This document shows positions 9,715-63,557 of a stretch of DNA of 64,000 nucleotides, piece after piece; position 1 is the stretch's first letter; the number at the start of each line of letters is the position of its first letter. Made by a program: the position numbers and the translations under genes. Source of the stretch: Candidatus Gastranaerophilales bacterium (GTDB lineage Bacteria > Cyanobacteriota > Vampirovibrionia > Gastranaerophilales > Gastranaerophilaceae); NCBI GenBank assembly GCA_944324915.1, contig CALUYD010000006.1, forward strand, positions 1-64,000. The letters run 5' to 3'. Under the pieces are notes generated by a model, which saw nothing but the letters and a program-made list of their open reading frames with translations, did not search any database and had not been told where the DNA came from.

Positions 9715-12700
9715 TTATTCTTTAATAATCCATTTGAAATCTTGGATAGATGAGTTATTTTTTATTATTCCTTCAATTAAAACAATAAATTCTCTTGTAG
9801 GAATTTCATCAACTTGATAAGCTAGAGGTGGAATTTTATTATAATCATTTTGAGATATAGTTGTTGATAATTTCTTTTCAATAGGTGAAGCAGTAATTAA
9901 ATTAATTGTTTCTTTTGTGTCTTTATCCATTTCATCTACTTTTTGGCTTAAGCTGAATTTTCCAATATTTCCCATAACGCTAACTATTGAATTTGGAATT
10001 CTGCCTAGGATTTTTGTGCTTGCATATTGATTTAAAAGGTTAAATGTTCCTGTGATATAAAGGCTCATATTTGAACCTTGTGAATTTATGTATTGTATAT
10101 TTGCAATTGAATTTTTAATTTTTACGGTACCTTCTATTGTTTTAAAATCGCCTGTGTTTTGCTTTGTTATAGCGGATAAGGTTGAATTTAGGGTTAATTT
10201 TAATATGCTTTGAGATAAGATATTTCCTGCTTGCAAAAATCTTTCAAGTTTTGCAAATTGAGATAATTCTCCATTATCGATATTAAATTTAATATAACCA
10301 TCTAATGTATTTAAAATTTTATCAATATCAAATCCTTTAAATTCAGCATTAATTAGTGCGCTTAATTTTCCGCTTGTTGCAATAGATAGGCTTTTTAATT
10401 TATTTGATAAAAGTCTTATATTTAATTCTTTTAAAATTAATTCTGCTTTTGTTTTTTGATTTAAAAGATTGATGCTTGTTTTGCCTGTAATTTTGCCGTT
10501 TAGAGTTTCTGCGCTAAAAGTTTCAATATTTAAAATATTATTTTTTACATTGCCCTCAAAAGAAACATTATTAAGCAAAATATCTGATGTTTCTATTGTT
10601 AAAATATTTCCTTTTATATTGTTTATTTCATAATCTAATTTATTTATTGTGTTTGAATTTTTTAAATATTTTTCAAAACTTTCAAGATTAACATGCATTG
10701 ATTGAATTTGTGCAAAATCAATAACCACTTTGTTTTTTATAAGTTTTGCTTGTGCAACTAAATCAAAATCAAAGTCAAAAATTCTACCTTTTATAATATT
10801 TATATAAAATTCTGAATTTTTGATATTCAAGATTAAATCAGATATATTTAAATTTAAATCGTTGAGCGTTATATTTTGAAGATTTAAATTACCTGTGATA
10901 TTTGGTTTTTCTATGTTGCCATTGATTAAAATATTTCCTTTAGCGCTAAAATTAAGATTTTCATAATTTGGAATTACAAGAGGAGTTTTATCCAAAATAT
11001 TGATTTTTATATTGTTTAAATAAGGGCTTTTATCAACGTTTAAAATTTCACCGCTAACAAAAATCATATTTGATATATTGCAGGATGAAATCGTTAATTT
11101 ATTTTGTTTGATATTAATTTGGCTATTTAATTTTGTGGGTTTATTTTTGATTAATAAAAGTTTGTTTCCTTTAGAAAAATCGCTTTGAATATTTATTATT
11201 GTTTCTGTTTGTTTTGTTTTGTAATTTTTAACTGTACCATTGATATTAAATGTAATATTATCAACAATAATTTTAGTATTTGGAATTTCAATATCTTTTT
11301 CTAAGAAATTAAGATGTAGTTTTGGAATATATATTTCTTTATTATATTTTTTTAAATATACTTTAAAATTGCTAAGGTTAGAGTTTGATTTAAGAATAGG
11401 ATGTTTTAGAGTTCCTATTATATTAGAGTTAATTTTAAGTAAACCATTTTTAAACTCATAATCTTTCAATTTTGGCATTATCATGTTGCTAAAAGGAAGT
11501 TCTTTAATTAAAGATAATAATTGAGCAATATTTATTTCATCAGAATTGATTTTGATATTTAAATTTGTTTTATCATCAATTGTTCCTATTAGATTAAATT
11601 TTGCTTTATTGATAAATGCGCTTGTGTTGATGATATTTATTGTATTATTAGCAAAATTGATGTTTGAATTTATATTATTTAAGATAAGTCCTGTTTTTTT
11701 ATCTTTTATTTTTGTATCTTTTATTAATAGATTTCCTTTTGATTGCAAGGTTTTAAAATTGCTTTTTAAATATACGTCAATTTTTGATGTGCCTTGTATA
11801 TCAATATCATTAAGATTAAATTTAAAATTGAAAATTTTTCCTATTGCATCTAAAATTTCTCTTAAATCTGATAGATTTATTTCATTTGAAATTAATTTTG
11901 CTTCAATAAAATTATTTTTTGATATAGTAGCATTTGATTTTATTTGAATAAATTGATTTTTTATAAATTTAAAATCGCAATCAGTTGTTATTTTTCCGCC
12001 TTTAAAATTTAAAAGAAGTTTATTTTTAGGTAGTGTTAAACCTTGGATTTTAAATGTGTAATCACTTAAAAGAACTGTACCTAAAATATCCGGGTTTTTA
12101 TTTTGATTATTGATTTTTAGATTAATATCTGATTTTGTATAAAAATTATATTTGTCTGCCCAATACAATGGATTTTTATTTAATTTTGCAAGTTTTTCTC
12201 TGAATTTTCCTATTGAATCGGGGTTTAATTTAATAGATAAATTTAGATTAAAATCAGATATTTTATGGTTAGCGCTTGCAATTTTGCCATTTGTTGAAAT
12301 TGTTATTGTTTTTTTAAATTCTGAGGAAGATATTTTTAATTTGTTTGATTTTATATAAAAATTTTTCTTTATATTTTCGTCATACAAATTTAGCAAAAAT
12401 ATGTCGCTTGATAGATTGATGTTTTTTATTTTGAATTTTGTTGCTGTTTTTTTAGGCATAATATCAAAATATTTAAAACAATCATATTTATTTTCATCCG
12501 TAAAAGAAGTATTTATTTCTATTTTGTCTGTCTTGATTTTATTCAAATCAATATATTTATAAAAAAGAGATAATATATTTATATCTATATCAGGATTTGA
12601 GACCCATAAGAAATCTTTTTTGTTTGGATATTTTAATTTTATATAGTCTGCTTTTAAATTTATGTCGAATTTATAATTAGGTTTGATTTGAAGATTTGAT

Positions 12701-12942
12701 ATATCAAGAGTTAATTTTGAATTTTTTAATACAAAGTTATTTATAGCATTTTCAATTTTTGCTTCATCAATAAATTTAGGCATTAAAAATAAATAAGTTA
12801 AATAAAGCCCAACAATAAATAACCCCAAGAAAACAAAAAAGCCTTTAGAAAGCGAAAAAACAGGAAGCTCAAGATTTTGCGTTTTTTCTTTGATTTTATT
12901 TATAGCTTTCTTAATCAGACTTTTCTTTTTGTAATATATCAT
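9715..12942 (-). CDS. AsmA-like envelope bridge protein
   Basis: A 1075-aa protein. A basic cytoplasmic tail is followed by one membrane helix (about residues 30-52, FFVFLGLFIVGLYLTYLFL). The rest is a very long, regular beta-strand repeat typical of the AsmA/TamB/YhdP repeating-beta-groove proteins that span the periplasm and move phospholipids. The C-terminal 200 residues hold an AsmA-C-like segment (GELSQFAKLERFLQAGN, then IEGTVKIKNS...) and end in KIPPL...FKWIIKE. The same ending is found in the protein at 17169. It is the last gene of the TonB/ExbB/ExbD/ExbD operon, 9 nt after exbD, so its work may be coupled to the proton motive force (inference). It is extremely rich in Asn, Lys and Ile, as are its neighbours. 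Confidence 0.82.
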   Translation of the reverse strand: MIYYKKKSLIKKAINKIKEKTQNLELPVFSLSKGFFVFLGLFIVGLYLTYLFLMPKFIDEAKIENAINNFVLKNSKLTLDISNLQIKPNYKFDINLKADYIKLKYPNKKDFLWVSNPDIDINILSLFYKYIDLNKIKTDKIEINTSFTDENKYDCFKYFDIMPKKTATKFKIKNINLSSDIFLLNLYDENIKKNFYIKSNKLKISSSEFKKTITISTNGKIASANHKISDFNLNLSIKLNPDSIGKFREKLAKLNKNPLYWADKYNFYTKSDINLKINNQNKNPDILGTVLLSDYTFKIQGLTLPKNKLLLNFKGGKITTDCDFKFIKNQFIQIKSNATISKNNFIEAKLISNEINLSDLREILDAIGKIFNFKFNLNDIDIQGTSKIDVYLKSNFKTLQSKGNLLIKDTKIKDKKTGLILNNINSNINFANNTINIINTSAFINKAKFNLIGTIDDKTNLNIKINSDEINIAQLLSLIKELPFSNMIMPKLKDYEFKNGLLKINSNIIGTLKHPILKSNSNLSNFKVYLKKYNKEIYIPKLHLNFLEKDIEIPNTKIIVDNITFNINGTVKNYKTKQTETIINIQSDFSKGNKLLLIKNKPTKLNSQINIKQNKLTISSCNISNMIFVSGEILNVDKSPYLNNIKINILDKTPLVIPNYENLNFSAKGNILINGNIEKPNITGNLNLQNITLNDLNLNISDLILNIKNSEFYINIIKGRIFDFDFDLVAQAKLIKNKVVIDFAQIQSMHVNLESFEKYLKNSNTINKLDYEINNIKGNILTIETSDILLNNVSFEGNVKNNILNIETFSAETLNGKITGKTSINLLNQKTKAELILKELNIRLLSNKLKSLSIATSGKLSALINAEFKGFDIDKILNTLDGYIKFNIDNGELSQFAKLERFLQAGNILSQSILKLTLNSTLSAITKQNTGDFKTIEGTVKIKNSIANIQYINSQGSNMSLYITGTFNLLNQYASTKILGRIPNSIVSVMGNIGKFSLSQKVDEMDKDTKETINLITASPIEKKLSTTISQNDYNKIPPLAYQVDEIPTREFIVLIEGIIKNNSSIQDFKWIIKE

Positions 12943-12951
12943 TTTTTATTT

Positions 12952-13335
12952 TTATAATTCAACGATTGAAATACTTTGCACTCCTGCATTTCTAGCGTTA
13001 TCCATTAACCTTACCACGCTTTGATGTGATGAATCACCGGATGCTTGAATTAAAAGACCGTCGCTTTTTTCTTGCGATAAATCCTTGATTGTAGCTAATA
13101 AATCAGCTTCTAAAACTTCATTATTATCAATTAAATATCTGTTATCTTCAGTTACTGTAACAGTTAATAGTTTTGCTTCTTTATCAATATTATTTTGCTC
13201 AACATATTCAGGAACCGCTAAAGATAAGCCTTGTTGATCAAGTATCGGCGCTATTACCATCATAATAATCAATAGCACAAGAAAAATATCAGTTAAAGGA
13301 GTGATATTTATTTCGTTAAATGTTTGTCTTTTCAT
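12952..13335 (-). CDS. ExbD/TolR-family biopolymer transport protein (second copy)
   Basis: A 127-aa protein with one membrane helix near the N-terminus, carrying the proton-relay Asp in INITPLTDIFLV, followed by a periplasmic domain ending in VQSISIVEL. The ATG overlaps the previous gene's stop by one base (TAATG), so translation is coupled. Its first 30 residues are nearly identical to the upstream ExbD paralogue at DNA level, while the periplasmic domains differ. It should form the stator with the ExbB/TolQ protein and pass proton energy to the TonB-like protein. Confidence 0.93.
   Translation of the reverse strand: MKRQTFNEINITPLTDIFLVLLIIMMVIAPILDQQGLSLAVPEYVEQNNIDKEAKLLTVTVTEDNRYLIDNNEVLEADLLATIKDLSQEKSDGLLIQASGDSSHQSVVRLMDNARNAGVQSISIVEL
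13247..13331. repeat. ExbD paralogue repeat, copy 1
   Basis: This 85-nt stretch matches 13675-13759 with a single mismatch (G versus A at a third codon position). It covers the membrane-helix codons of the second exbD. The sequence on either side of the block is not alignable at DNA level. Confidence 0.9.
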
Positions 13336-13787
13336 TATCCTTCAACCTCGTCTTCTAGTCTTTTTTGCTCTTTTTCTTTTAATGGTTCGCCTGCTACTAC
13401 AAGTTTTTCAAAACCTGCATTTTGAGCTGCTTTCATTACTTTCATAATTTCAGAGCTTTTAGTATCTTTATCGGCTCTAACTACTACTTCTTTCTTTTCT
13501 AAACTTCCTATTAATGAACCTAGGCTTTGCTCTAAATCATCAGAATTTACTCTTGTTTCATTTACATAGAAATTACCGTCTTTTGTGATTGATACTGTGG
13601 CATCTTTCGTTTCAATCGCTAATCCTGAGTTGATATTAGGCATTTTAATATTATTATCGATAGATTGGAAGCTAGGCGCTATTACCATCATAATAATCAA
13701 TAGCACAAGAAAAATATCAGTTAAAGGAGTGATATTTATTTCATTAAATGTTTGTCTTTCGTTTTCTTGTGAAGAACTAAAATTCAT
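13335..13787 (-). CDS. ExbD/TolR-family biopolymer transport protein (first copy)
   Basis: A 150-aa protein with the same ERQTFNEINITPLTD membrane segment and catalytic Asp as the gene that follows. Its distinct periplasmic domain (VSITKDGNFYVNETRV...VVVRADKDTK) contains the usual ExbD pattern of a 'DG.' turn and a '.I.AD....' strand. It is 13 nt after the ExbB gene, with an AAGGAT ribosome site. Two different ExbD proteins behind one ExbB suggest a heteromeric stator or two output proteins. Confidence 0.93.
   Translation of the reverse strand: MNFSSSQENERQTFNEINITPLTDIFLVLLIIMMVIAPSFQSIDNNIKMPNINSGLAIETKDATVSITKDGNFYVNETRVNSDDLEQSLGSLIGSLEKKEVVVRADKDTKSSEIMKVMKAAQNAGFEKLVVAGEPLKEKEQKRLEDEVEG
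13675..13759. repeat. ExbD paralogue repeat, copy 2
   Basis: Partner of 13247-13331, with 84 of 85 bases identical, in direct orientation 428 nt apart. Recombination between the copies would delete one exbD and keep a functional chimera. Confidence 0.9.
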
Positions 13788-13800
13788 TTTTTATCCTTAA

Positions 13801-14448
13801 TTACAATGTGATTGAATTGCTGTTATCAACTGTAACTTCTTCATCTGAATCAATAAAACTTAAAAATACAAGTTTAATTAATTTGAAATCAGATTCAAAT
13901 CTTGCAACAACTGTTTGAAAATAGTTAAATAAAACTACCGCAACAATCGCAACACCAAGACCTAGCGCTGTTGCAATAAGAGCTGAAGCGATACCTGTTG
14001 CAACAGCTGCTGATTGGTTGCCTTGAGTTGCTAAATCTTGGAATGTGTATAAAATACGAACTACTGTACCAAACAAGCCTAAAAATGGTGCAACACCACC
14101 TATTGTACCAAGGATTGTTAAGTGTCTTTCAAGTTTTCTTGTAGCTAATGAAGATGAAATATCGTAAGCTCTAGAAAAACCTGCTTTTTGTTCTGTGTAG
14201 ATACGAAGTGCTTCATCAACCATTTCAGAAATAATACCGCCTAATTGAACAGACATTCTTTGAGCAGCTCCAATGTTATTTTTAACTAAAGCCTTTTGCA
14301 GCCCCGGGATAAACTCTGAAATATTTCTTTCGTTCTTTTTGTAGTAAGAAATTCTGTTGATTGCTACATAGATAACTAAAATTGAGCAGATGAAAATTGG
14401 TGTAAGTACCGCCCAATCTTGTGCAATTGCTTTTAGCATTAAATCCAT
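13801..14448 (-). CDS. MotA/TolQ/ExbB-family proton channel protein
   Basis: A 215-aa protein with three predicted membrane helices (about 15-33, 115-140 and 155-180) in the ExbB arrangement. The conserved channel stretch reads ILGTIGGVAPFLGLFGTVVRI, then ATGIASALIATALGLGVAI. Those paired helices line the proton pore of TolQ/ExbB. The gene sits between the TonB-like gene and the two exbD genes with gaps of 13-25 nt and good ribosome sites, so the operon encodes a complete Ton/Tol-type motor. Sequence alone does not separate ExbB from TolQ here. Confidence 0.95.
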   Translation of the reverse strand: MDLMLKAIAQDWAVLTPIFICSILVIYVAINRISYYKKNERNISEFIPGLQKALVKNNIGAAQRMSVQLGGIISEMVDEALRIYTEQKAGFSRAYDISSSLATRKLERHLTILGTIGGVAPFLGLFGTVVRILYTFQDLATQGNQSAAVATGIASALIATALGLGVAIVAVVLFNYFQTVVARFESDFKLIKLVFLSFIDSDEEVTVDNSNSITL

Positions 14449-14473
14449 TTTTTTATCCTCATATTTTCTATTT

Positions 14474-15691
14474 TTATCTTAATACACTGTTTATTACGTT
14501 GTAATCAAATGTGAATTCAATAGGTACTGATTGACCTTTAAATTCAGGTGGCAGTGGTCGAAATGGTGCTGTTAATTCTATTGCGCTCATTGCGGCTCTG
14601 TCTGCCAAAGGTACGCCTGAAGATTTTGTAACTTTTGCTGATAATAATCTTCCGTCACGACCTATTGTAAATGTTATTACTACACGTTTTGAGCTATCTC
14701 CTTTTGGAGGTGACCAATTTCTTTTTATTCTTTGCTCTAAATCCTTCATATAAGGACCCCAATTTGGTTGTCTTATAGCGTCAATTCCGGGGGCGCCGTT
14801 AGGATTTCCGGGGCTTGGATTACCGCCTGAGCCATATCCGCCGTATGAACCTCTTGAAGCGTATTGTCCGCCTCCTGAAGATGATGCTCTTGAGCCGCCT
14901 GATGAGCTACCTCCGCTTGAGCTGAATTTTGGAGCAGGTGCATAACCTGAACCGCCTTTTGAAGATGATGAGCTTGAAGGTGCTCCTGAAGGCTTATAGG
15001 TAGAGCCTACAGGCGCTGATGATTTTGGCGCTTGAACAACAAATGGGCTTTTTGGCGCAGTCGCAATTTTTGGTGCAGAAGGTGCGCTTACCCCTTGAGG
15101 TTTTCTAGTCGGTTTTATTGCCGGTTTAACCGCACTTGGTTTTGCAATTGTTGGTTTTGTTACAACTTTTTGAGGTTGAACAGTCGGTTTTGTAACCGTT
15201 TTTTGTACTTGCGGTTTAGATATTGGTTTTTGTACAGTTTTTTGTGGTTGTTTTTGAACTGTTTTTTGCGGTTGTGGTTTTGTTTTTGGTTTTTGAGCAA
15301 CAGATTTTTTAGCTTGCGGAGCACTAGCCGGACTTGGTTCTGAAATCATTTTTTTAGGGTCGTGCTTTCCGCCTGCACGAGAATCTCTATCTGATCTTAT
15401 TTTTGTTTTTTTATTAATCGGTGGTTTGGATTCATTTTGAACAAGTTTGAATTCTAAATTTCTGTTAGGAAGTTCAGGTTTTGGTAAATGTGGAAAAACT
15501 AAACCATGAACTATTGAAATAATGATTAAAAGAAAAACAAACATTAAATGAAACACTACTGATAAAGCAAGACCTATTACAGGTTTTACTTCATCATCCG
15601 AATCGAAAAAGTTTGGCAGATGCTTGCCTGTGTTAATTTTTTCGTCAGTTAGCGAATTTGTTATATCAAATTTGTTTCTTATCTGTGCCAT
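14474..15691 (-). CDS. TonB-like energy transducer
   Basis: A 405-aa protein. A cytoplasmic N-terminus of about 40 residues precedes one membrane helix (about 40-65), then a long periplasmic spacer rich in Pro, Lys, Gln, Ser and Gly (with repeated QKTVQKP-like units), and a C-terminal TonB/TolA domain of about 90 residues (MKDLEQRIKRNW...VVITFTIGRDGRL...SSGVPLADRAAMSAI). The roughly 230-residue spacer could span a wide periplasm. It is cotranscribed with ExbB, two ExbD and an AsmA-like protein, and no TonB-dependent receptor is in the window. The C-terminal domain family is clear. Whether it energises receptors or envelope constriction (TolA role) is open. Confidence 0.9.
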   Translation of the reverse strand: MAQIRNKFDITNSLTDEKINTGKHLPNFFDSDDEVKPVIGLALSVVFHLMFVFLLIIISIVHGLVFPHLPKPELPNRNLEFKLVQNESKPPINKKTKIRSDRDSRAGGKHDPKKMISEPSPASAPQAKKSVAQKPKTKPQPQKTVQKQPQKTVQKPISKPQVQKTVTKPTVQPQKVVTKPTIAKPSAVKPAIKPTRKPQGVSAPSAPKIATAPKSPFVVQAPKSSAPVGSTYKPSGAPSSSSSSKGGSGYAPAPKFSSSGGSSSGGSRASSSGGGQYASRGSYGGYGSGGNPSPGNPNGAPGIDAIRQPNWGPYMKDLEQRIKRNWSPPKGDSSKRVVITFTIGRDGRLLSAKVTKSSGVPLADRAAMSAIELTAPFRPLPPEFKGQSVPIEFTFDYNVINSVLR

Positions 15692-52146: not shown

Positions 52147-53022
52147 TTATTTCTGCTCTATTTTTTCAATAGCATCAAGCCCTACGAGGTTTTCTAATAT
52201 TGCTCTTGAAGTAGTAAATTCATCTTGTGCTTTTTGTGCGTTTGTTTTAGCGTTTCTATAATAAACGTCTGATATTACAAGTTCTTCTTTTGATTTTTTT
52301 TGAGCTTGCTTATATATTTCTTCCCTTTTTTCAAAATTTTCCTGTGTCATTTTTGCAAGTTTTTCTTTGGTTTTATAGTCAACATATAAATTTAATAATT
52401 TTTTTTGCAATTCATCAATTTTTCTTACCATTAAAACCATATCAGCATCTGAAACTTTAGAAAAACGATAGTTAACTTCTTTATCATCTTTCATAAAAGC
52501 GTTAACCAAGCCTCCGCCAATTAAAGCACTTGTTGCAACAAAAGGATCTCCTGCAACAGAGGCTCCGGCGATAGATGAAAAATTAGCTAGTGGTTTTAGA
52601 ATTTTTTTCATGGTTGATTCATTTGGTTTATCTTCATCAGGATTTGATAGTTTATAAATTGCATATTTCATTGTTTCTGAGCGTGATACTGTTGCATTCC
52701 ATAAAATAGCTAAATCCGAATTAATTTCGTTTGAATCTTCTTCTAATTCCCAAGCAATATCATCAGCTAGTCTTTTAAGGCTTAAATCAGCATAATTTGC
52801 GTTAATTTCACTTGCTTGTTTTTCTTCAATTTTTTTATCTTCTTTTTTTGTAACAAGTTGAGCTTTTTGCTCATCATTTGTAATTTTTTCAACTTTTCTT
52901 GATTCAACTTTGTCTGTATTTGATAATCTTCCTTCTAGTGGTTTTGGCTCTTTTAGATCATCAATTGTAATTCCTAAAGCGATAGAATTTATCAATAATG
53001 CTATAACAAGGAGTTTTTTCAT
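52147..53022 (-). CDS. Secreted helical protein, paralogue B
   Basis: A 291-aa protein with a signal peptide (KKLLVIALLINSIALG). A Lys/Glu-rich linker of about 70 residues precedes a conserved block starting LAILWNATVSRSETMKYAIYKL, a small-residue segment (AGASVAGDPFVATSALIGGG) and a long helical hairpin (about 195-280) that resembles one TolC coiled-coil hairpin (YDYK..., A..N...AQDEFTTSRAILENLVG). It is a paralogue of the gene immediately upstream, overlapping it by 4 nt. A half-TolC or coiled-coil scaffold role is possible but unproven. The 3' end abuts the GC-rich element. Confidence 0.7.
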   Translation of the reverse strand: MKKLLVIALLINSIALGITIDDLKEPKPLEGRLSNTDKVESRKVEKITNDEQKAQLVTKKEDKKIEEKQASEINANYADLSLKRLADDIAWELEEDSNEINSDLAILWNATVSRSETMKYAIYKLSNPDEDKPNESTMKKILKPLANFSSIAGASVAGDPFVATSALIGGGLVNAFMKDDKEVNYRFSKVSDADMVLMVRKIDELQKKLLNLYVDYKTKEKLAKMTQENFEKREEIYKQAQKKSKEELVISDVYYRNAKTNAQKAQDEFTTSRAILENLVGLDAIEKIEQK

Positions 53023-53888
53023 TTTTCCTCCTTATTTGTCACATTTATTGTTTTCTTTTCAAAATTTAAATCTTTTTTATCTACGTTTTGAGTTATTAAA
53101 TCCATTTGGATTATATTTAATTCATCAACTGTTTTTTTACCTGCAAGACGAGTGAGTGCAAGGCGATATTTTTTAACTTCTTGTTTTAATCTGTATTCTT
53201 CAATTAACTCGTCTTCCCATTGGGATGATGTTATTGCTATATCGAGCGAATTATTTTTGTCAAGCGCATCAGAGTAATTTTTATTATGCAAAAGAAGCTG
53301 TTCTCTGCATTTTTTTAGTTTAATTAATGCACCTTTATAATTATAATAATCAACTATGATTTCATCCTGTAAATCTTCAATTAAACTTGCAAGCTCAATT
53401 GCTTCAGTATCAGTTAAGGATGGATTTTGTAATTTATCATTATTTTCTTTGTTTATTAAATTATTAGCTAATCTTCCGGCTGCATAAGCTCCTGATTGGA
53501 TACCGTAATTCATTCCTAAAAAACTAGGTAAAAGCGCAGCTCCTGAAATAATTGCACTCATTGATTTTGCCATTAAAGAGGAATGTATTCTTCTTTGCTC
53601 AGCCGGAATTGCTAATTTTTTAAGACAAAAAGATATCATCGGATTATTTGAAACAGTTGCATTCCAAAGGTTTTCTATGTCTTGCAAATCTGCTTTTTGT
53701 TGTTCGTTTATTTGTTTTTGTGCTTCAAGAGCGTTATCTACAAATAATGAACCTTTTAGGGTTTCAACTTTATCTTTATATTTGACATCAAAATCTTCAA
53801 CTTTTTCAAGTTTGATTAAATCTCCTGCAAAAGCGCACCAGCTTGTGTTTAAAAATATTAAAAATAACGCAAGAAATTTTTTTGTCAT
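53019..53888 (-). CDS. Secreted helical protein, paralogue A
   Basis: A 289-aa protein with a signal peptide (FLALFLIFLNTSWCAFA). It shares with its downstream neighbour the block LWNATVS-NNP-, a small-residue middle (ISGAALLPSFLGMNYG), the 'SLTDTEAIELASLIEDLQDEIIVDYYNYK' layout (parts) and a final helical hairpin ending RLALTRLAGKKTVDEL. The NNP and terminal 'LAG' wording recalls the outer-membrane factor (TolC) repeat, but only about half a TolC length is present. The promoter TGaTAAAAT ends 6 nt before the ATG, so the message is probably leaderless. The function is unknown. Confidence 0.7.
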   Translation of the reverse strand: MTKKFLALFLIFLNTSWCAFAGDLIKLEKVEDFDVKYKDKVETLKGSLFVDNALEAQKQINEQQKADLQDIENLWNATVSNNPMISFCLKKLAIPAEQRRIHSSLMAKSMSAIISGAALLPSFLGMNYGIQSGAYAAGRLANNLINKENNDKLQNPSLTDTEAIELASLIEDLQDEIIVDYYNYKGALIKLKKCREQLLLHNKNYSDALDKNNSLDIAITSSQWEDELIEEYRLKQEVKKYRLALTRLAGKKTVDELNIIQMDLITQNVDKKDLNFEKKTINVTNKEEK

Positions 53889-55394: not shown

Positions 55395-56828
55395 TCAGCG
55401 GATTTGGAGTATAACCCTTCTTATTAAAGAAGGGTTTTTGGATTTTATAACGGTTGCGTTTTTAAAATTATATCTTGCTATAAGATTATATTGAGTCTCA
55501 AAGTTTGCTTTTAGGATTGCATCTTTTGGAATTAAACTTTTAAGTTTTTTAGAATAAATATAATTGTTATTTGTATCTTCATTTTTTAGAAGTATTTCTG
55601 TTTTATCTTCTCTATTCCAAAAATAATCACAATAAACGCCATTAGTGTTAAGTAGAATAAAATTAGAAATATCTTTGTTTGAAAGCTGATAATCATTCAA
55701 TTTATGGTTGTTCATTTCATAATTTATTCCTGTAATTTTTGTTGGTGCGAAAATTATTTTTTCATTTTTTTCTTTTATATTTTTATCTTTATTGAAAATT
55801 ATTATTCTATTTTCTTTGATTTCTTCAAAATGCTCTGTTTTATTTGTTTTTGGTGCCTCAAAACCTATAAAATAAAGGTTTTTTCTTTTTGAATTATTTT
55901 GAATTTTTTTATAAAAATCTATGCTTTCATTGATATTTGATGAGGAATTAAGATATATCTCATCTCTTTTGTAGTGGTTTGGATTGATTATTTCAATATT
56001 ATAATCTTTGAGTTTATATTTTATCAGCCAATTTGGATATGGTTTGTACTTTGAAATTGCTAAAACAATGGCGTTTTTATCTTCAAAGAAAATCCTGCCT
56101 TTATTTGGAAATTTTATTTCTTCTTTTATTTTAAAAATATCTTTTAGCTTTATTGGATAATTCGTGTTTTTATAGTCTAAAATTGTATTATTTAATTCTT
56201 CAAGGTCTTGATAAAAAGAGTCTATTTTTATTGAAAAACGGCTATTTTTTTCATTTTTTTGTGCTGTATTTTTTCTTATATTATTTGTTTTTATTATTTT
56301 TTTTATATCATCAATATCAAGGTCATATCTAAGTTGAGAATTTGGTGTAATATAGATAGAAACGGCTTTTTGCTGATAGCCTAATATTTTAATTTTTTTA
56401 GAAAATTTTAGTTTTAAAAGCTCATCTAAAACATCGTCTGCATTTTTTTCAAGCGAATAATAATCATTATTTTTTGATTTAACTATTACAAAGCAGTCGT
56501 ATTTTAGATAATATCTGTCATCGATATTAATATAGTCAAAACTATATAAATTTAAATATCTTTGAATTTTGTTTATTGCTTCATCTTTATTTGCAAATGG
56601 CTTATATTTGCAATATATATTCATTCCGTAAATTGATGAAAAAATTATAACATTTTTAATTTCTCTTAGTTGTCTGATTTCTCTTTCTATATTTTTTGCA
56701 TAGTTTATGTCCAATTCTTGCGCAGTAATGTTTTCTGATTTAATTTCTATTTTTAAATCATAGCTTTCATTTTGAAAGAAAAGAAAAAATATTATTGATA
56801 TAAATAGAATGATAAAAAGTTTTTTCAT
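55395..56828 (-). CDS. RND-like porter protein lacking the membrane domain
   Basis: A 477-aa protein with one N-terminal hydrophobic segment (LFIILFISIIFFLFF). The first half follows the RND (AcrB/CusA) porter: ENITAQELDINYAKNIEREI (RND 'pGa...evE..v..piE'), NVIIFSSIYGMNIYC, KKIKILGYQQKAVSIYI, LDIDDIKKIIKTNN, and PIKLKDIFKI ('v.L.DvA.v'). A second, C-terminal round is also visible: YQLSNKDISNFILLNTNGVY, then LKSLIPKDAILKANFETQYN and PSLIRRVILQI. All twelve transmembrane helices and the Asp/Lys proton relay of a normal protein of about 1040 aa are missing. The adaptor gene overlaps it by 4 nt. It is either a novel energy-free porter scaffold or a decaying pump; the frame is intact. Confidence 0.7.
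   Translation of the reverse strand: MKKLFIILFISIIFFLFFQNESYDLKIEIKSENITAQELDINYAKNIEREIRQLREIKNVIIFSSIYGMNIYCKYKPFANKDEAINKIQRYLNLYSFDYINIDDRYYLKYDCFVIVKSKNNDYYSLEKNADDVLDELLKLKFSKKIKILGYQQKAVSIYITPNSQLRYDLDIDDIKKIIKTNNIRKNTAQKNEKNSRFSIKIDSFYQDLEELNNTILDYKNTNYPIKLKDIFKIKEEIKFPNKGRIFFEDKNAIVLAISKYKPYPNWLIKYKLKDYNIEIINPNHYKRDEIYLNSSSNINESIDFYKKIQNNSKRKNLYFIGFEAPKTNKTEHFEEIKENRIIIFNKDKNIKEKNEKIIFAPTKITGINYEMNNHKLNDYQLSNKDISNFILLNTNGVYCDYFWNREDKTEILLKNEDTNNNYIYSKKLKSLIPKDAILKANFETQYNLIARYNFKNATVIKSKNPSLIRRVILQIR
55413..55439 (+). terminator. Terminator of the 58-aa gene, lying inside the opposing gene
   Basis: A 10-bp perfect stem AACCCTTCTT/AAGAAGGGTT (55413-55422, 55427-55436) with loop ATTA, then T residues. 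The hairpin occupies the last codons of the convergent porter gene. Confidence 0.88.
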
Positions 56829-57865
56829 AGCTTTATTTTCTTGTGGGTAATATTTTGATAGTTATCGTTTGAAATTATAATATCTTCGTTTTTTAATCCG
56901 TCTAAAATTTCAATTTCGTTATTCATGATTTTTCCTGTTGTTATTTTTGTTTTTTCTATTTCACCTGTGTTTTCTTTTATATTTGCAACTTTATAGATAT
57001 ATTTTTTGCCATTTTCTTCAAAAACATATTCAATCGGAATAAATAATTTTTCATCGTTTTTAAAATTAAAATAAACATCAGCACTCATCCCTTCTTTTAG
57101 GTAATTTGTTGTATCTTTGATTTTGACTTTTACAACATATCCGCTAAAATTCATATCGGTTTTTGAAATGTGTGCAATATTTCCTTGATAATTTTTATCA
57201 AGAATTTTTATTTTGGCGCTATCGTTTATTTTTAGCTTGTTTATAGTATTTTCATCAACCATAATATCCACTAAAAACCCTTCTGAAGATATGAAAAATG
57301 CTATTGGATTAGCAATTTTTGCAATTGCACCAACGCTTTGATATTTTTTTGCAATGTATCCGTCGTAAGGCGCTGTTACTTTGTTATAGTCAAGTTCTTT
57401 GTTTATATAATTTATCTTTTCTTTTTGTGTTTGTATTTGCTCAGCAAGAACTTTTAATTCATAATATGCGCTCTCCCAATCATTGTCTGAGATTGCACCT
57501 TCTTTGTGAAGTAAATCAAGTCTATGATAATAGCTTTTTTGTTTATCTTGTTGAATTACGTATTGTTTTAATCGGTTTTGTTCTTCTTTTTTTCTTATTT
57601 CATAAAGAGTGCCATCAAGTCTTGCTATTGTTTGCCCCTTTTTTATAAAATCACCGTCAGCAAAAGGAAAATATGTTATTTTTCCTTCTGTTTGAAAGCT
57701 CAAGTTCGCATTATTGGATGATTTTACTATGCCATGAAAAATTTTATTTTCGTATTTTGGAATATTGATTTTTATATAATTAAAGTCGTTAAGATTTTCG
57801 TATTTGGTACATCCAAATAAAAACATTGTAAATACAAGAATGAAAATTGATATTATAATCCTCAT
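56825..57865 (-). CDS. Efflux adaptor lipoprotein (HlyD/AcrA family)
   Basis: A 346-aa protein. The signal peptide ends in a lipobox (MFLFGC), so it is an inner- or outer-membrane lipoprotein like AcrA. Half-lipoyl motifs (GKITYFPFADGDFIKKGQTIARLD and the mirrored VTAPYDGYIAKKYQSVGAIAK, shown in parts) flank a coiled-coil hairpin (about 95-150). The beta-barrel and membrane-proximal domains follow (AKIKILDKNYQGNIAHIS, DGLKNEDIIISN). Such adaptors bridge an RND pump to a TolC channel. It is coupled to the truncated RND porter; no TolC gene is in the operon. Confidence 0.92.
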   Translation of the reverse strand: MRIIISIFILVFTMFLFGCTKYENLNDFNYIKINIPKYENKIFHGIVKSSNNANLSFQTEGKITYFPFADGDFIKKGQTIARLDGTLYEIRKKEEQNRLKQYVIQQDKQKSYYHRLDLLHKEGAISDNDWESAYYELKVLAEQIQTQKEKINYINKELDYNKVTAPYDGYIAKKYQSVGAIAKIANPIAFFISSEGFLVDIMVDENTINKLKINDSAKIKILDKNYQGNIAHISKTDMNFSGYVVKVKIKDTTNYLKEGMSADVYFNFKNDEKLFIPIEYVFEENGKKYIYKVANIKENTGEIEKTKITTGKIMNNEIEILDGLKNEDIIISNDNYQNITHKKIKL

Positions 57866-57911: not shown

Positions 57912-58910
57912 TTAATTATAGGAATGCTTTAAAAATAATCCGTTTACGCTAAGATTAGGAACATATCCTGTTTTGGATATTAAAGATGTTTCTCTTTTTG
58001 AAAAATCATATCCCCAAGTTCCAAGGTAGATTTTTTTGTTGTTGTTGTCATAAACATAACAAATGGCAATAATCATATTGTCGTTATCAGCACTAAAACC
58101 CAGGGGTTCTATATCATATCTGTATTTTGATATTTGTTTATTTTTCCAATCAAGAAAATAATGTTTTATAGCTAAATCAAAATCTCCTAATTTAATTGAA
58201 TAGCTATTTTCAATATCATCTTCAACAAAATGGATATATAGATTTGTTTTATAAATTCCATTTAGTGTCGAGCCTATTTTTTCTTTTATTAATAATTTTT
58301 TAGAGTCACTGCTCCAATCAACAAGCACTAAGCCATGAAAAGAATTAGGATAAACCTCTTTTGTGCCTGATTCTAAAACAGGTATTCTTTCTTTTTGTTG
58401 GTGTTTATATTCAAGTATTCTTTTTATTTTGTTTTTGGAAGTATCAAGTTCTTCTACAAAAAAACTTGATGATATTTGATTTGTGTCAGGCGAATAATAA
58501 TAATTAGGATATGCCGCATATTTGCATTCTTTATCTACTGTAAGATATGGCATATAAAATAAGTCTTTTTTAATATTTTCAAGGTTATATTCTCTTTTGC
58601 CTTGAGGGTAATTGTATGCTTGAAAAGTGTATTTTAGGGGCGGAACGTGATATTTTTTTGTGTCTATTTTTTGTTTTTCTTCTTTAATTTCTCTATCCTC
58701 AAGGGGAATATTTTGAGCTTCATTTTCCCATTCTTCATAAGTTTCAACCATTTTTGGTTTTGGCTGAACTTCTTTCTTTTTAAATGGTGATTTGGCTTTT
58801 ATTTTTTCGTAAGTATTTTTAAAATTTTCTTTTATATTAAGGTCTTTGCCTTCTGCTCCAGCAAAAAATACCATACATAAAAATAAAATAATTATTATTT
58901 TATTTTTCAT
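57912..58910 (-). CDS. Secreted propeller-like protein, uncharacterised
   Basis: A 332-aa protein with a signal peptide (IIIILFLCMVFFAGAEG). A charged linker with a Pro/Lys-rich stretch spans residues about 25-90. The rest is beta-rich, with repeats of the 'W/F-S-x-D-x-K-x-L-L-I' type (VDWSSDSKKLLIKEKIG; PLGFSADNDNMIIAICY) like TolB or WD40 blades, though too few blades are present for a full propeller. It is encoded between the response regulator (1-nt overlap) and the efflux adaptor, so it probably works with the adaptor/porter complex or senses its ligand (inference). I do not recognise a family. Confidence 0.65.
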   Translation of the reverse strand: MKNKIIIILFLCMVFFAGAEGKDLNIKENFKNTYEKIKAKSPFKKKEVQPKPKMVETYEEWENEAQNIPLEDREIKEEKQKIDTKKYHVPPLKYTFQAYNYPQGKREYNLENIKKDLFYMPYLTVDKECKYAAYPNYYYSPDTNQISSSFFVEELDTSKNKIKRILEYKHQQKERIPVLESGTKEVYPNSFHGLVLVDWSSDSKKLLIKEKIGSTLNGIYKTNLYIHFVEDDIENSYSIKLGDFDLAIKHYFLDWKNKQISKYRYDIEPLGFSADNDNMIIAICYVYDNNNKKIYLGTWGYDFSKRETSLISKTGYVPNLSVNGLFLKHSYN

Positions 58911-59587
58911 TAAACAAGACCTTCTTTTAGCGCAACTATTGCTGCTTTTGTTCTATCTGTTAAGTATAGTTTTTGCAATATATTGTGAACATGGGCTTTT
59001 GTTGTTGATATTGAAACAACTAATTTTTCTGAGATTTCTTGATTTGATAAACCATCAACAATTAAAGATAAAACTTCTAGTTCTTTTTTTGTTAAGCCAT
59101 ATTTTTTGTTTGCTTCTTTTTGGCTTTTTGTTGCGGTTGTTTGTATGTCGTTTTCGTTTTGAATGCTTGATAAAACTACTCTTGCAATTTGAGAATCAAT
59201 CCAAGCTGCTTTTGTAGCTACTGTATCTATTGCACTTGTAAGCGTTTCAGAGCTTGAACCTTTCATAATATAGCCGTCAGCTCCTGCTTTAAATGCTGCA
59301 AAAATATCTTCTTTATTATCTCTTGATGTAAACATTAAAACGGCGCAATCTAATTTTAATTCTTCTTTAATTTTTCTTGTTGCGCTAATGCCGTCCATTT
59401 TTGGCAATCCTATATCCATTAAAATTACATCCGGATTATATTGGCTTGCCATCATAACGCCTTGTGCTCCGTCTGTTGCTTGGGCTACAAGGTTGTATTT
59501 TGGCGTATTTTCTATTTTCATAGCAAGCCCTAATCTTGTAAACTCGTGATCTTCTACAAGTAAAATGTTGATTTTTCTATCTGTCAT
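58910..59587 (-). CDS. NarL/FixJ-family response regulator
   Basis: A 225-aa protein. The receiver domain (residues 5-120) has the acidic pocket (LLVEDHEFTR), the phospho-acceptor Asp in PDVILMDIGLPKMDG, the switch Thr in MFTSRD and the Lys in GYIMKGSS. A LuxR-type HTH follows (about 160-220: LTKKELEVLSLIVDGLSNQEISEKL, in parts). Phosphorylation should allow DNA binding. It overlaps the histidine kinase gene by 4 nt and is followed by the propeller-like and efflux-like genes, so it is the likely regulator of this operon. Confidence 0.95.
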   Translation of the reverse strand: MTDRKINILLVEDHEFTRLGLAMKIENTPKYNLVAQATDGAQGVMMASQYNPDVILMDIGLPKMDGISATRKIKEELKLDCAVLMFTSRDNKEDIFAAFKAGADGYIMKGSSSETLTSAIDTVATKAAWIDSQIARVVLSSIQNENDIQTTATKSQKEANKKYGLTKKELEVLSLIVDGLSNQEISEKLVVSISTTKAHVHNILQKLYLTDRTKAAIVALKEGLV

Positions 59588-61131
59588 AATATTACCTTAC
59601 AATCATTAATTACGTTTTTCAATTCAAAAGAAAATTTTGAACCCTTATTAAGTTCTGATTCTACATATATTTTACCATTGTGCGCTTCAATTATTTGTCT
59701 TGACAGATATAATCCAAGACCTGTGGAACTTGAGCGTTTTTGGTTTGTTCCTTGAGAGAATCTGTTAAATAATTTTGAACAGTCTTCTTGTGATAATCCG
59801 ATGCCGTCATCTATTACTTCAACTTTTATGTCTTTTTTGTCTTGTATTATGTTTACTTTGACGCATGAGCTATCTTGAGAGTGTTTTATTGCATTTCCTA
59901 TTAAATTTATAATAACTCTTCTTATCTCGTTTTTATCTGCATTTATGAATATTTCATCTTCATTTTTAGATATTTCGATTTCAATATTTGCTTTTTTGGC
60001 TAAGGATTCAAGTTCTTGATTACATTCTTGGATAAGTTTTACTATGTCAAATTTTGTTTTGCAAAGATATGTTTTTCCTGCTTCGTATCTATATACTTCT
60101 AAAAGCGCATTAACAAGACCAAGCATATCTTCTGAGCTTTTTTTCATGGCGTTAAATAAGTTATTTTGTTTTTCGTTAATTTCTCCTAATGATTTATCTA
60201 AAACAAAATCAAGCCCTGAAATTGACGCTAATAGCGGTGTTCTTAAATCATGTGTTAGTGTTGCAATGAAGTCATCTCTTAATCTTTCGGTTTCTTTTTG
60301 ATATGTACAATCTCTTATAACTGCAACATAGAAATTATTTTTTTCATCAGAAACAGGCGCAATGCTTATTTCAACGGGAATTTTTATATCTTTTTTATAA
60401 TTTATTAATGAATAGTTTCTTAAAAATACATTTGTTTTATTAGTTAGTTCGTTTGTTGAAAATTGTTTTGATTCGCTAACTACAAGCTCAAAAAGATTTT
60501 TGTTTAATAAATCTTTTTTGTTTTGACCGAATAAATTTATTGAAGCATTATTTAAATCGGTAATTTTCATATCTTGATTAAAAAGAATAATGCCATCTGC
60601 GCAATTTTCAATAACGGCGTTGAGCTTAGAATTTGCTTGCATTAATTCTAAAGTTCTTTTTTGAACTGTTTCTTCTAAGTCTTTTGAGTAATTTTCAAGT
60701 TTTTTATTTGCTATTTCTAGTTCTTCAATTTTTTTATCAAGTTCTTTTTTAAGTCTTGCCTGTGTTAGAGCATTTTTTATATTAATAATTAAATTTCTGT
60801 TGTCCCAAGGCTTTTCAATATATTTAAATATACCTATTTCATTAATTGCTCTAATGGCGTTTTCTTTATCTGCATAACCCGTTAAAAGAATTGTTGAAGC
60901 ATCTTTTTGAAGTTTTTTAGCGTTCTCTAAAAAGTCTATGCCGTTCATTTCAGGCATAATAAAATCACTTATTATTAAGTCAACTTCGTTTTTCTTTATG
61001 TAATTTAGTGCTTCATTGGGATTATTGTAAGCAGTAACATTGCTAAAGCCTTCAAGCCCCAAAAGCATACTAAGAGTTTTGGTGACCATGGCTTCATCGT
61101 CAACTATCAATATTTTACCCAACTTATCCAT
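59584..61131 (-). CDS. Hybrid sensor histidine kinase (REC-PAS-HisKA-HATPase)
   Basis: A 515-aa soluble kinase. The order is: receiver 1-120 (IVDDEAMV, phospho-acceptor in LIISDFIMPEMNG, LLTGYAD, YIEKPWD); coiled coil 125-175; PAS about 170-285 (ENCADGIILFNQDMKITDLN); HisKA with THDLRTPL (His about 292); and HATPase with NEIRRVIINLIGNAIKHS, DDGIGLS and GTGLGL-type SSTGLGLYLS. There is no membrane helix, so the signal is cytoplasmic or arrives through its own receiver domain. It is the first gene of the operon that ends with the adaptor and porter. It should phosphorylate the following response regulator. Confidence 0.95.
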   Translation of the reverse strand: MDKLGKILIVDDEAMVTKTLSMLLGLEGFSNVTAYNNPNEALNYIKKNEVDLIISDFIMPEMNGIDFLENAKKLQKDASTILLTGYADKENAIRAINEIGIFKYIEKPWDNRNLIINIKNALTQARLKKELDKKIEELEIANKKLENYSKDLEETVQKRTLELMQANSKLNAVIENCADGIILFNQDMKITDLNNASINLFGQNKKDLLNKNLFELVVSESKQFSTNELTNKTNVFLRNYSLINYKKDIKIPVEISIAPVSDEKNNFYVAVIRDCTYQKETERLRDDFIATLTHDLRTPLLASISGLDFVLDKSLGEINEKQNNLFNAMKKSSEDMLGLVNALLEVYRYEAGKTYLCKTKFDIVKLIQECNQELESLAKKANIEIEISKNEDEIFINADKNEIRRVIINLIGNAIKHSQDSSCVKVNIIQDKKDIKVEVIDDGIGLSQEDCSKLFNRFSQGTNQKRSSSTGLGLYLSRQIIEAHNGKIYVESELNKGSKFSFELKNVINDCKVIL

Positions 61132-61255
61132 AATAAAAAGATAAGATATTTTTTCTTTTAATACAAATTATTAACAAAAATACAAAAAACTTAAAATTAC
61201 TTGATTTTAAATTTACATGAAATATCTTTGTGGTAATCTTGAGTTGTAGGGTGAT

Positions 61256-61273
61256 ATTAGACAGCAGTCTAAT
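61256..61273. promoter_or_regulatory. Inverted repeat upstream of the large membrane protein gene
   Basis: A perfect ATTAGAC (61256-61262), AGCA, GTCTAAT (61267-61273). It lies 16 nt upstream of the preferred ATG at 61290 and could be an operator or a 5'-leader hairpin. If the start codon were the GTG at 61230, it would be coding. Confidence 0.45.
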
Positions 61274-61289
61274 GTATATCAAGATAGTT

Positions 61290-63557
61290 ATGAATATAAC
61301 ACGCAGTCAGTACAGAGAAATCGCTAATAAAAAGTTATTTGCCAGCAATAACGCCACAACGTCACCAAGAAATGATGTCACCTCGCTGTCTTTTACATCT
61401 AACATTACAAGAAAAATTGATAAAAAGAATGTTCAAACAATTTACAGTGGCGCAAGAACGTTAATTGACGGAATTGAAAACTCTCTTGGTAAAGGGTATT
61501 TTGAAGATTTACTTAACAAAGCGCAGATTGATTTTAATGACGATACATTAACTTATGCAAATAGAACATTTTTAAAAGATGCATTCGCTACATTGAAAGC
61601 AATAGTTGAAATTCCTTTTAGATTTACAACTAATGTTGCCAAAAAAATGAAAATTAATATTTCTGATGATAGTTTTTTAGGTGCTTGGCTTAAAAAACAT
61701 GAACAAGAAATTTCTTATAATAAAGTAGTTGATATTATCGATGAATATGTTAGACCTGTTATTTCAAAAGAAGGTAATGTAAATTCTCAAAGAGCTAATA
61801 AAATATTCAGCGATACGATAGGCTCGAACATCACAAGAGTTAAAAAGAATTACGAATCTCGAGATGAAAGAACATTAAATCGAGTAGCCACATCTATCGT
61901 TTCAGCACTTTATTCAGGTGCTGATTTTTATAATATATCCATGCTTCAAAAAGACGATAAAAATGAAGCATCAAAAGCACAAAAAAGACGTTTAAGACAA
62001 GAATTAACAAGAATGGGTTTAAGCGCAGCGTTTACCTTCTTAACTCTTGGTTTGTTTGATAGATATACTAAGAAAAATATTTGGCTAAATGCTTCTGTTA
62101 TTGCCGGTTCTACATTATTATCAGAGATTTTATCAAGAATATTTTCAAAAACACCTTTGATTCCTTTAACTTCAAAAGAAGCAGCTAAAATTTCACAAAA
62201 GAGAAAAAATAGCCCCGAAGAAAGACAAAAAATAACCTTTAGAGCAAACCTTAAAAATGAACAAGAAGAATTCCGCTCGCTTTTAAAAAGTACTCCTACA
62301 TTAGAAGAAAGCAGCAAAAAACTCGAAAATAAAGAATTAGAGCCTAAAAAACATAAAAAATCTAAACTCTTTAGAATTTTTATGGGTGCATTTGCACTTG
62401 CTAATGTTTTCTTTATTTTGTCAAAATTATCAAAAGGCGAACTTAAAGCAAATAAAATCAAAAAAGAATTTTATGATATGTACAAAGATAATATTTTAAA
62501 TAACGATATTACCGCTGAAGTTGTTGAGCAAGCAAAACAAGCTGCTAAAAAAATTAAAGAAGATAATGCAGGTCGATTAATTAAATTGCCTTCATTTGGA
62601 AGTATTAAAGATTTAATTACAAAAAGAAAAGTTGAAGTAAATCTTGATGAATTAGCTTCCAAGTTAGAATTACTCAAAAATACACAAGATGGTCAAAAGA
62701 TTTCAAATACTTTAGATATTTATTTAAATCATATTCAAAAATTAAAAGATGAAGGAAAAAATGTTGTTTCTTCAAAAGTTGATATTCCTGTTGTTTCAGG
62801 ATTATATTCAGGAATTACCAAAATATTTAATACAGTAGGAACAATATTAACAGCTCCATCAAGATTGTTATTTGCTTGTTTGAATAAAGATTATAAAGAT
62901 TCAAATAAATTATTTGATGAGGTTATGCAAGAGGTTAAACCTAATTATAATAAGGAGCTTGTTCAACTTGCTCATATTTGTGAACTTGATAAAAAATCAA
63001 AATTGCATGAAATCTTTAAATCAAAACCGAGAAAAGATTCAACAATGATCGATATTATCCAAAAACGTGCAAGAAATGTTGAAGTTGGTGCTGAAACATC
63101 TGAATTAGCTAATATTTCACGTACAATGGTTACGGCAATAACTACATATTTCTTTGTTAATGATTACAGAAATAGCGTACTTATTGAATCAGGCGGAAAA
63201 GACACAGAAGGCGCTAAAGAAGAAACAAGAGAACGTTTGATGCATAAGTTATCTAACTTTATAATTAACGGTACATTGATGAATACATTTAATACTATAT
63301 TTAAATCTGTATTAAATAAGAGCTTGTTGGGTGCTACTGTTGTTGCGGCAGCTACTGAAACAACTAATGAATTTTTGGTTAGAAAATCAATATGTCAACC
63401 TATTGGCATGAAAAAATCAAAACAAGAAATTATAGATTACGAAGAAAAACAAATGAATAAAAAAGGCTTTATGGGCTGGTGGTCAAGGACATTTAAGAAA
63501 ATTACAGGTAAAAAATCGCTAACTCAAAAAGCAGGTATTAAAACTTCAAATAAATAA
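61290..63557 (+). CDS. Large lineage-type membrane protein, uncharacterised
   Basis: About 755 aa. The N-terminus (MNITRSQYREI..., then SLSFTSNITRKI) carries the short F(T/S)S tag-like motif seen on other proteins here. Two blocks of membrane helices occur: one near residues 245-300 (LSAAFTFLTLGLF; ASVIAGSTLLSEIL) and FRIFMGAFALANVFFIL around 365-380. A second block, VSGLYSGITKIFNTVGTILTAPSRLL, is followed by TMVTAITTYFFVNDY and LLGATVVAAATETTNEFLV near the C-terminus. Long Lys/Glu-rich helical loops separate them. No enzyme motif is found. The frame opens at GTG 61230 and has ATG 61272, but ATG 61290 gives the typical start. The function is unknown. Confidence 0.7.
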   Translation: MNITRSQYREIANKKLFASNNATTSPRNDVTSLSFTSNITRKIDKKNVQTIYSGARTLIDGIENSLGKGYFEDLLNKAQIDFNDDTLTYANRTFLKDAFATLKAIVEIPFRFTTNVAKKMKINISDDSFLGAWLKKHEQEISYNKVVDIIDEYVRPVISKEGNVNSQRANKIFSDTIGSNITRVKKNYESRDERTLNRVATSIVSALYSGADFYNISMLQKDDKNEASKAQKRRLRQELTRMGLSAAFTFLTLGLFDRYTKKNIWLNASVIAGSTLLSEILSRIFSKTPLIPLTSKEAAKISQKRKNSPEERQKITFRANLKNEQEEFRSLLKSTPTLEESSKKLENKELEPKKHKKSKLFRIFMGAFALANVFFILSKLSKGELKANKIKKEFYDMYKDNILNNDITAEVVEQAKQAAKKIKEDNAGRLIKLPSFGSIKDLITKRKVEVNLDELASKLELLKNTQDGQKISNTLDIYLNHIQKLKDEGKNVVSSKVDIPVVSGLYSGITKIFNTVGTILTAPSRLLFACLNKDYKDSNKLFDEVMQEVKPNYNKELVQLAHICELDKKSKLHEIFKSKPRKDSTMIDIIQKRARNVEVGAETSELANISRTMVTAITTYFFVNDYRNSVLIESGGKDTEGAKEETRERLMHKLSNFIINGTLMNTFNTIFKSVLNKSLLGATVVAAATETTNEFLVRKSICQPIGMKKSKQEIIDYEEKQMNKKGFMGWWSRTFKKITGKKSLTQKAGIKTSNK

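Follow-up and report, generated by a model that had tools for sequence, protein, structure and literature searches.

A natural RND protein without its membrane motor, kept with an efflux adaptor in Gastranaerophilales: a possible unpowered docking base

RND pumps have, to our knowledge, been taken as inseparable from their proton-driven membrane domain. The protein described here shares with AcrB, CusA and CmeB (PF00873) the periplasmic fold, the domain order TM1-PN1-PN2/DN-PC1-PC2/DC and the partnership with an adaptor, but it lacks TM2-12 and the proton relay, and in the clade to which it belongs PC1 and PC2 are partly gone as well. A closer counterpart is AcrBper (PDB 5EN5, 5ENO, 7B8R), a fusion of the two periplasmic loops of AcrB which is trimeric in crystals and able to bind drugs (PMC8617272), so that a body of this kind is able to fold and assemble without the motor. 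Both proteins consist of two loops joined after removal of the membrane block; however, AcrBper is engineered and soluble, whereas the present protein is natural, possesses TM1 and is encoded in an operon with an adaptor. In gonococcal MtrCDE, the outer-membrane factor (OMF) is opened by adaptor binding with no energy required, an RND unable to move protons is still part of the assembly and keeps the channel sealed, and drug export and dissociation do require energy (PMC3664412). The likeness to proton-dead MtrD is that an RND unable to use proton flux still forms a complex; the difference is that those proteins are laboratory point mutants from another system, in which the membrane domain is present. 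No natural RND protein without a membrane domain was found in the open-access literature, subscription journals lying outside the scope of the search.

An RND gene reduced to TM1 and two periplasmic loops

The window (the whole stretch of 64,000 nucleotides analysed, from a Candidatus Gastranaerophilales bacterium) carries on its minus strand an ORF at 55395-56828 which codes for a 477-aa protein and overlaps by 4 nt (ATGA) the adaptor ORF at 56825-57865 on the same strand. The only Pfam match of this protein is ACR_tran (PF00873), found in two stretches (E 8.8e-14; 50.6 bits against a cut-off of 28). A single hydrophobic segment is present (residues 1-23) where an RND transporter has twelve helices; since no signal-peptidase-I-like site was found at the N-terminus, we interpret this stretch as TM1, left uncleaved and serving as an anchor. 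When a profile of 25 reduced orthologues was compared with a profile of seven full-length RNDs, both periplasmic loops aligned (probability 99.9, E 1.9e-31), with a single gap across TM2-7 and an end short of TM8-12 (template position 812 of 1021). In the alignment with AcrB, the columns of the relay residues D407, D408, K940, R971 and T978 are empty in all reduced proteins. The 477-aa gene is thus an RND transporter cut down to TM1 and both periplasmic loops, with TM2-7 and TM8-12 gone. The sequence-only reading had proposed an RND-type porter without its pump, from which both membrane blocks had been cleanly removed in an open frame, and had called for a profile search against RND families; these results bear it out.

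Domain lengths were compared by aligning the 25 orthologues with E. coli AcrB and full-length relatives, using AcrB domain boundaries which we take to be established. The TM2-7 block measures 0 residues in all 25 orthologues from the window's genus (g1) and 5 in the reduced form of a second genus (g26), against 219-236 in AcrB and close full-length pumps (236 in AcrB, 222 in one sister-genus pump). The TM8-12 region amounts to 0-18 residues in the 25 orthologues rather than 190. PN1, PN2, DN and DC are all retained: the docking subdomain DN spans 78-84 aa throughout, and DC 79-85 aa in 24 of the 25, the single exception having 108. The remaining porter subdomains are variable (PC1, 5-95 aa; PC2a, 0-37; PC2b, 8-20), and trimming has gone furthest in the window's own clade and in one other genome (G006).

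On the minus strand of the window, the retained TM1, sole membrane anchor of the protein, is encoded at 56763-56828 (residues 1-22). It is followed by PN1 (56505-56762, residues 23-108), the first half of PN2 by AcrB boundaries (56370-56504, residues 109-153), the docking subdomain DN (56118-56369, residues 154-237) and the second half of PN2 (55980-56117, residues 238-283), at the 3' end of which TM2-7 is missing (junction 55979/55980). Next come a trimmed PC1/PC2a (55737-55979, residues 284-364; 81 aa versus ~120 in most orthologues), the docking subdomain DC (55491-55736, residues 365-446) and a PC2b stub with a new C-terminal tail in the place of TM8-12 (55398-55490, residues 447-477). The 'KNPS'-like tail itself (55398-55445) is common to many reduced RNDs and was not seen in full-length relatives.

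The AlphaFold model of the window protein has a pLDDT of 83 and a pTM of 0.80, and that of the g26 reduced form a pLDDT of 79.5. The best Foldseek match of both models is AcrBper (E 7e-23 for the window protein, 2e-36 for the g26 form), and the window model is superposable on full-length AcrB, CmeB and CusA with VIA Z-scores of ~21 (21.6 in one case) over 440-460 residues. As modelled, the 477-aa protein has the RND porter and docking fold, and the expectation of an AcrB/CusA-type porter is therefore upheld at the level of predicted structure.

Partner, neighbours and selection

The gene at 56825-57865 codes for an RND-type periplasmic adaptor (membrane fusion protein) of 346 aa, which matches TIGR01730 (RND_mfp) with an E-value of 2.8e-50 and 171.1 bits, versus a curated cut-off of 94.9; a lipobox with Cys19 can be read directly from its sequence. 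The sequence-only description of the overlapping partner as a normal efflux adaptor is confirmed by this match. At the tip of the adaptor hairpin (57488-57523, minus strand), the RLS motif for docking to a TolC-type OMF (R115, L119 and S126) is invariant in 27 of 27 aligned adaptors, and OMF genes are present in all 28 genomes of the genus. Two adjoining exported coiled-coil proteins of 289-291 aa, faintly OMF-like by eye, are encoded in the window at 52147-53888 (minus strand), and their homologues lie immediately 3' of the reduced RND gene in another genome (G024; L044 11004-12750). In weak searches, neither had a Pfam match and the 291-aa protein, at 52147, had none in the PDB.

Homologues of the reduced RND, with frames of ~410-570 aa which are all open, were found in 25 of the 28 genomes. 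The gene order is the same in all 25: histidine kinase, response regulator, 332-aa protein, adaptor and reduced RND. In the window, the upstream genes, all on the minus strand, code for a receiver-PAS-histidine kinase (59584-61131) whose homologues have no membrane helix, a NarL/LuxR-type response regulator (58910-59587) and the 332-aa exported protein (57912-58910), which is an upstream neighbour in every genome of the genus. The remaining three genomes (G005, G012 and G014) possess the kinase, regulator and 332-aa genes but lack both the adaptor and the reduced RND; for G014, where the contig ends ~150 bases beyond the 332-aa gene, this absence rests on whole-genome searches. The 332-aa family, which has no Pfam match, is present in 106 of 146 relatives, beside the kinase-regulator pair at nearly all loci read in other genera and mostly without an RND pair. 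Divergently oriented on the plus strand (61230-63557) is a gene for a 775-aa protein with no Pfam match, which keeps its position and is fast-evolving (dN/dS 0.17-0.32).

In close pairs, the Nei-Gojobori dN/dS values of the reduced RND (0.086-0.115) and of the adaptor (0.065-0.109) are on a par with the 0.113-0.124 of intact sister-genus pumps at similar divergence; with dS near 1 these values are rough, yet neutral decay is excluded. In the closest pair, the lowest dN/dS belongs to PN1 (0.05) and PN2a rather than to DN and DC. The usual marks of a pseudogene (relaxed selection, frameshifts, stops) were sought and not found, dN/dS being ~0.1 with 25 orthologues open. Synteny in 25 of the 28 genomes with joint absence from the other three, dN/dS of ~0.1 and frames that are all open show that the reduced gene is maintained by selection and is not decaying, as the sequence-only reading had supposed when it spoke of a reduced assembly kept with its adaptor. 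That reading would have fallen had related genomes carried a full-length gene with this copy alone degraded; sister genera do carry full-length genes, but the copy is neither alone nor degraded. A lone degraded copy is thus ruled out by orthologues, dN/dS and synteny, and a chance or assembly artefact by the 25 open orthologues of the genus together with four genomes of the second genus.

Ancestry and a second reduced form

In genus g36, the same kinase-regulator-332-aa module is followed, after a few genes, by those for a full-length RND of 1008-1023 aa with 8-10 predicted TM segments and for an adaptor. The relay positions D407, R971 and T978 are conserved in every full-length relative, and N is found at 408 and 940 in the full-length pumps of g36, g26 and g37. 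Full-length pumps with relay residues near the same module make it likely that the ancestor of the reduced RND was a powered full-length pump at or near this locus. A tyrosine recombinase gene adjoins a g36 full-length pump (L061 10085-10987, minus strand) and is possibly tied to movement of the pair.

Genus g26 holds both forms. In four of its species (G286, G360, G384 and G433) the RND lacks TM2-12 and measures 570-573 aa, the 553 aa of G433 being cut by a contig end; this form has a complete porter including PC2b and stops just before TM8. In three other g26 genomes (G052, G086 and G290) the same upstream genes are accompanied by full-length pumps of 989-1001 aa. The full-length proteins of g36 and g26 are close full-length relatives, each an orthologous pair with its adaptor near the kinase module (g36) or at the same locus (g26), differing in length (989-1023 aa), in their 8-10 predicted TM segments and in possessing the relay residues (L061, L068, L105-L112). 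The 535-aa membrane protein encoded downstream in g26, considered as a substitute engine, is a SulP sulfate permease which is also found beside a full-length pump.

The origin of the reduced form was examined on a tree built from the adaptors, whose genes are coupled to those of the RNDs, rather than from the RND proteins, and with G433 left out. Three reduced g26 systems group with the full-length g26 systems (100/100), whereas the g1 systems form a clade of their own (100/100); a single origin, with all reduced systems held together, is rejected (AU p 0.0022). From this tree and from the coexistence of both forms in g26, the motor has disappeared on at least two occasions, both times in place and with the adaptor kept. 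Searches of the class, family and phylum with profiles of this RND subfamily, which reductions within other subfamilies would escape, found reduced forms in g1 and g26 only. Two further short RND frames from the phylum (G521 and G531) still possess membrane helices and have the appearance of pumps split or broken in the ordinary way.

A docking base and its alternatives

A passive conduit or docking piece, as put forward from the sequence, remains the best reading of the reduced RND. In the form which we favour, with a probability of roughly 45%, the motor-less RND is a selected, unpowered docking base for adaptor and OMF, without proton-driven cycling. Three reduced copies, anchored by TM1, would stand at the periplasmic face of the inner membrane, and their trimer would be the unpowered base for the assembly of an adaptor hexamer with a TolC-type channel. 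Such a complex, having no proton relay, would neither cycle nor be pulled apart; the outcome would be a standing adaptor-OMF conduit, ungated or capped, for substrates that have already reached the periplasm or, alternatively, a fixed holder for the OMF. By analogy, the motor-less RND may be a permanent version of the proton-dead MtrD state, in which the adaptor-OMF duct is capped or held open. Docking fits better than substrate pumping because DN and DC are constant in length while the PC1/PC2 cleft is eroding. Against the docking base stand the absence of an OMF gene from the operon and the position of the lowest dN/dS outside DN and DC; against an open conduit, a permanently open outer-membrane route would be costly unless capped. 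Loss of PC2b in the window's clade may have deprived the porter of a continuous duct, in which case 'conduit' could fail and 'docking base' still hold.

Clean loss of the motor, a gene under selection and at least two origins suggest that the motor-less RND and its adaptor make a working pump-shaped structure which is independent of proton power. Nature has seemingly arrived two or more times at an AcrBper-like design, which selection retains together with its adaptor; this allows direct tests of an energy-free periplasmic body with its adaptor, for example of opening or sealing of the outer-membrane channel. More tentatively still, RND pumps may repeatedly have been turned, by clean motor loss, into unpowered trans-envelope assemblies with adaptor and OMF; these would form a novel class of envelope conduit, passive or static, made from the RND porter fold.

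It is rather unlikely that another inner-membrane engine (ABC, MFS or full-length RND) powers the pair, the reduced RND being its periplasmic part only or a member of a mixed trimer. The adaptor does also show similarity to adaptors of the MacA and EmrA types, the partners of ABC and MFS transporters, and one canonical full-length RND is kept in every genome of the genus; however, that RND, which is paired with an adaptor of its own, is only distantly related to this subfamily (its identity to the g36 pump is 22%), and the three genomes without the pair possess it too. No linked engine gene and no correlated transporter were found in the genus, nor was the missing membrane block found on a separate ORF, SecD being the only other partial match in a search of the window's own genome.

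Less probable again is a role in sensing or in periplasmic ligand binding on behalf of the adjacent histidine kinase and response regulator, an idea of the sequence-only reading which has weakened. The pair does lie directly 3' of the kinase, regulator and 332-aa genes in all 25 genomes, and in AcrBper the porter fold binds small molecules, but the kinase homologues have no membrane helix, in most other genera the module stands without the pair, no kinase adjoins the reduced RND in g26 and the candidate ligand cleft is the very part being lost.

A slowly decaying relic, open by chance, is strongly disfavoured: the divergence is fast (22-42% identity of the window protein to most orthologues in the genus) and PC1/PC2 were trimmed further in two lineages, but the 25 frames are open with dN/dS of ~0.1, close orthologues differ by no indels, the gene is lost together with its adaptor, there is a second independent case, and the two other broken or split RNDs of the phylum retain their membrane helices. 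Coupling to TonB/ExbBD, through which proton power would reach the porter, is scarcely credible, since the proposed cluster, although real (12.95-15.69 kb, inside the window), lies 40 kb away with no common gene order or association with the pair, and ExbB is present in 27 of the 28 genomes, including the three without the pair. The ExbB/ExbD/ExbD/TonB-like cluster is part of a minus-strand stretch at 9715-15691 in which it is followed by a gene for a 1075-aa protein that is, by eye only, AsmA/TamB-like.
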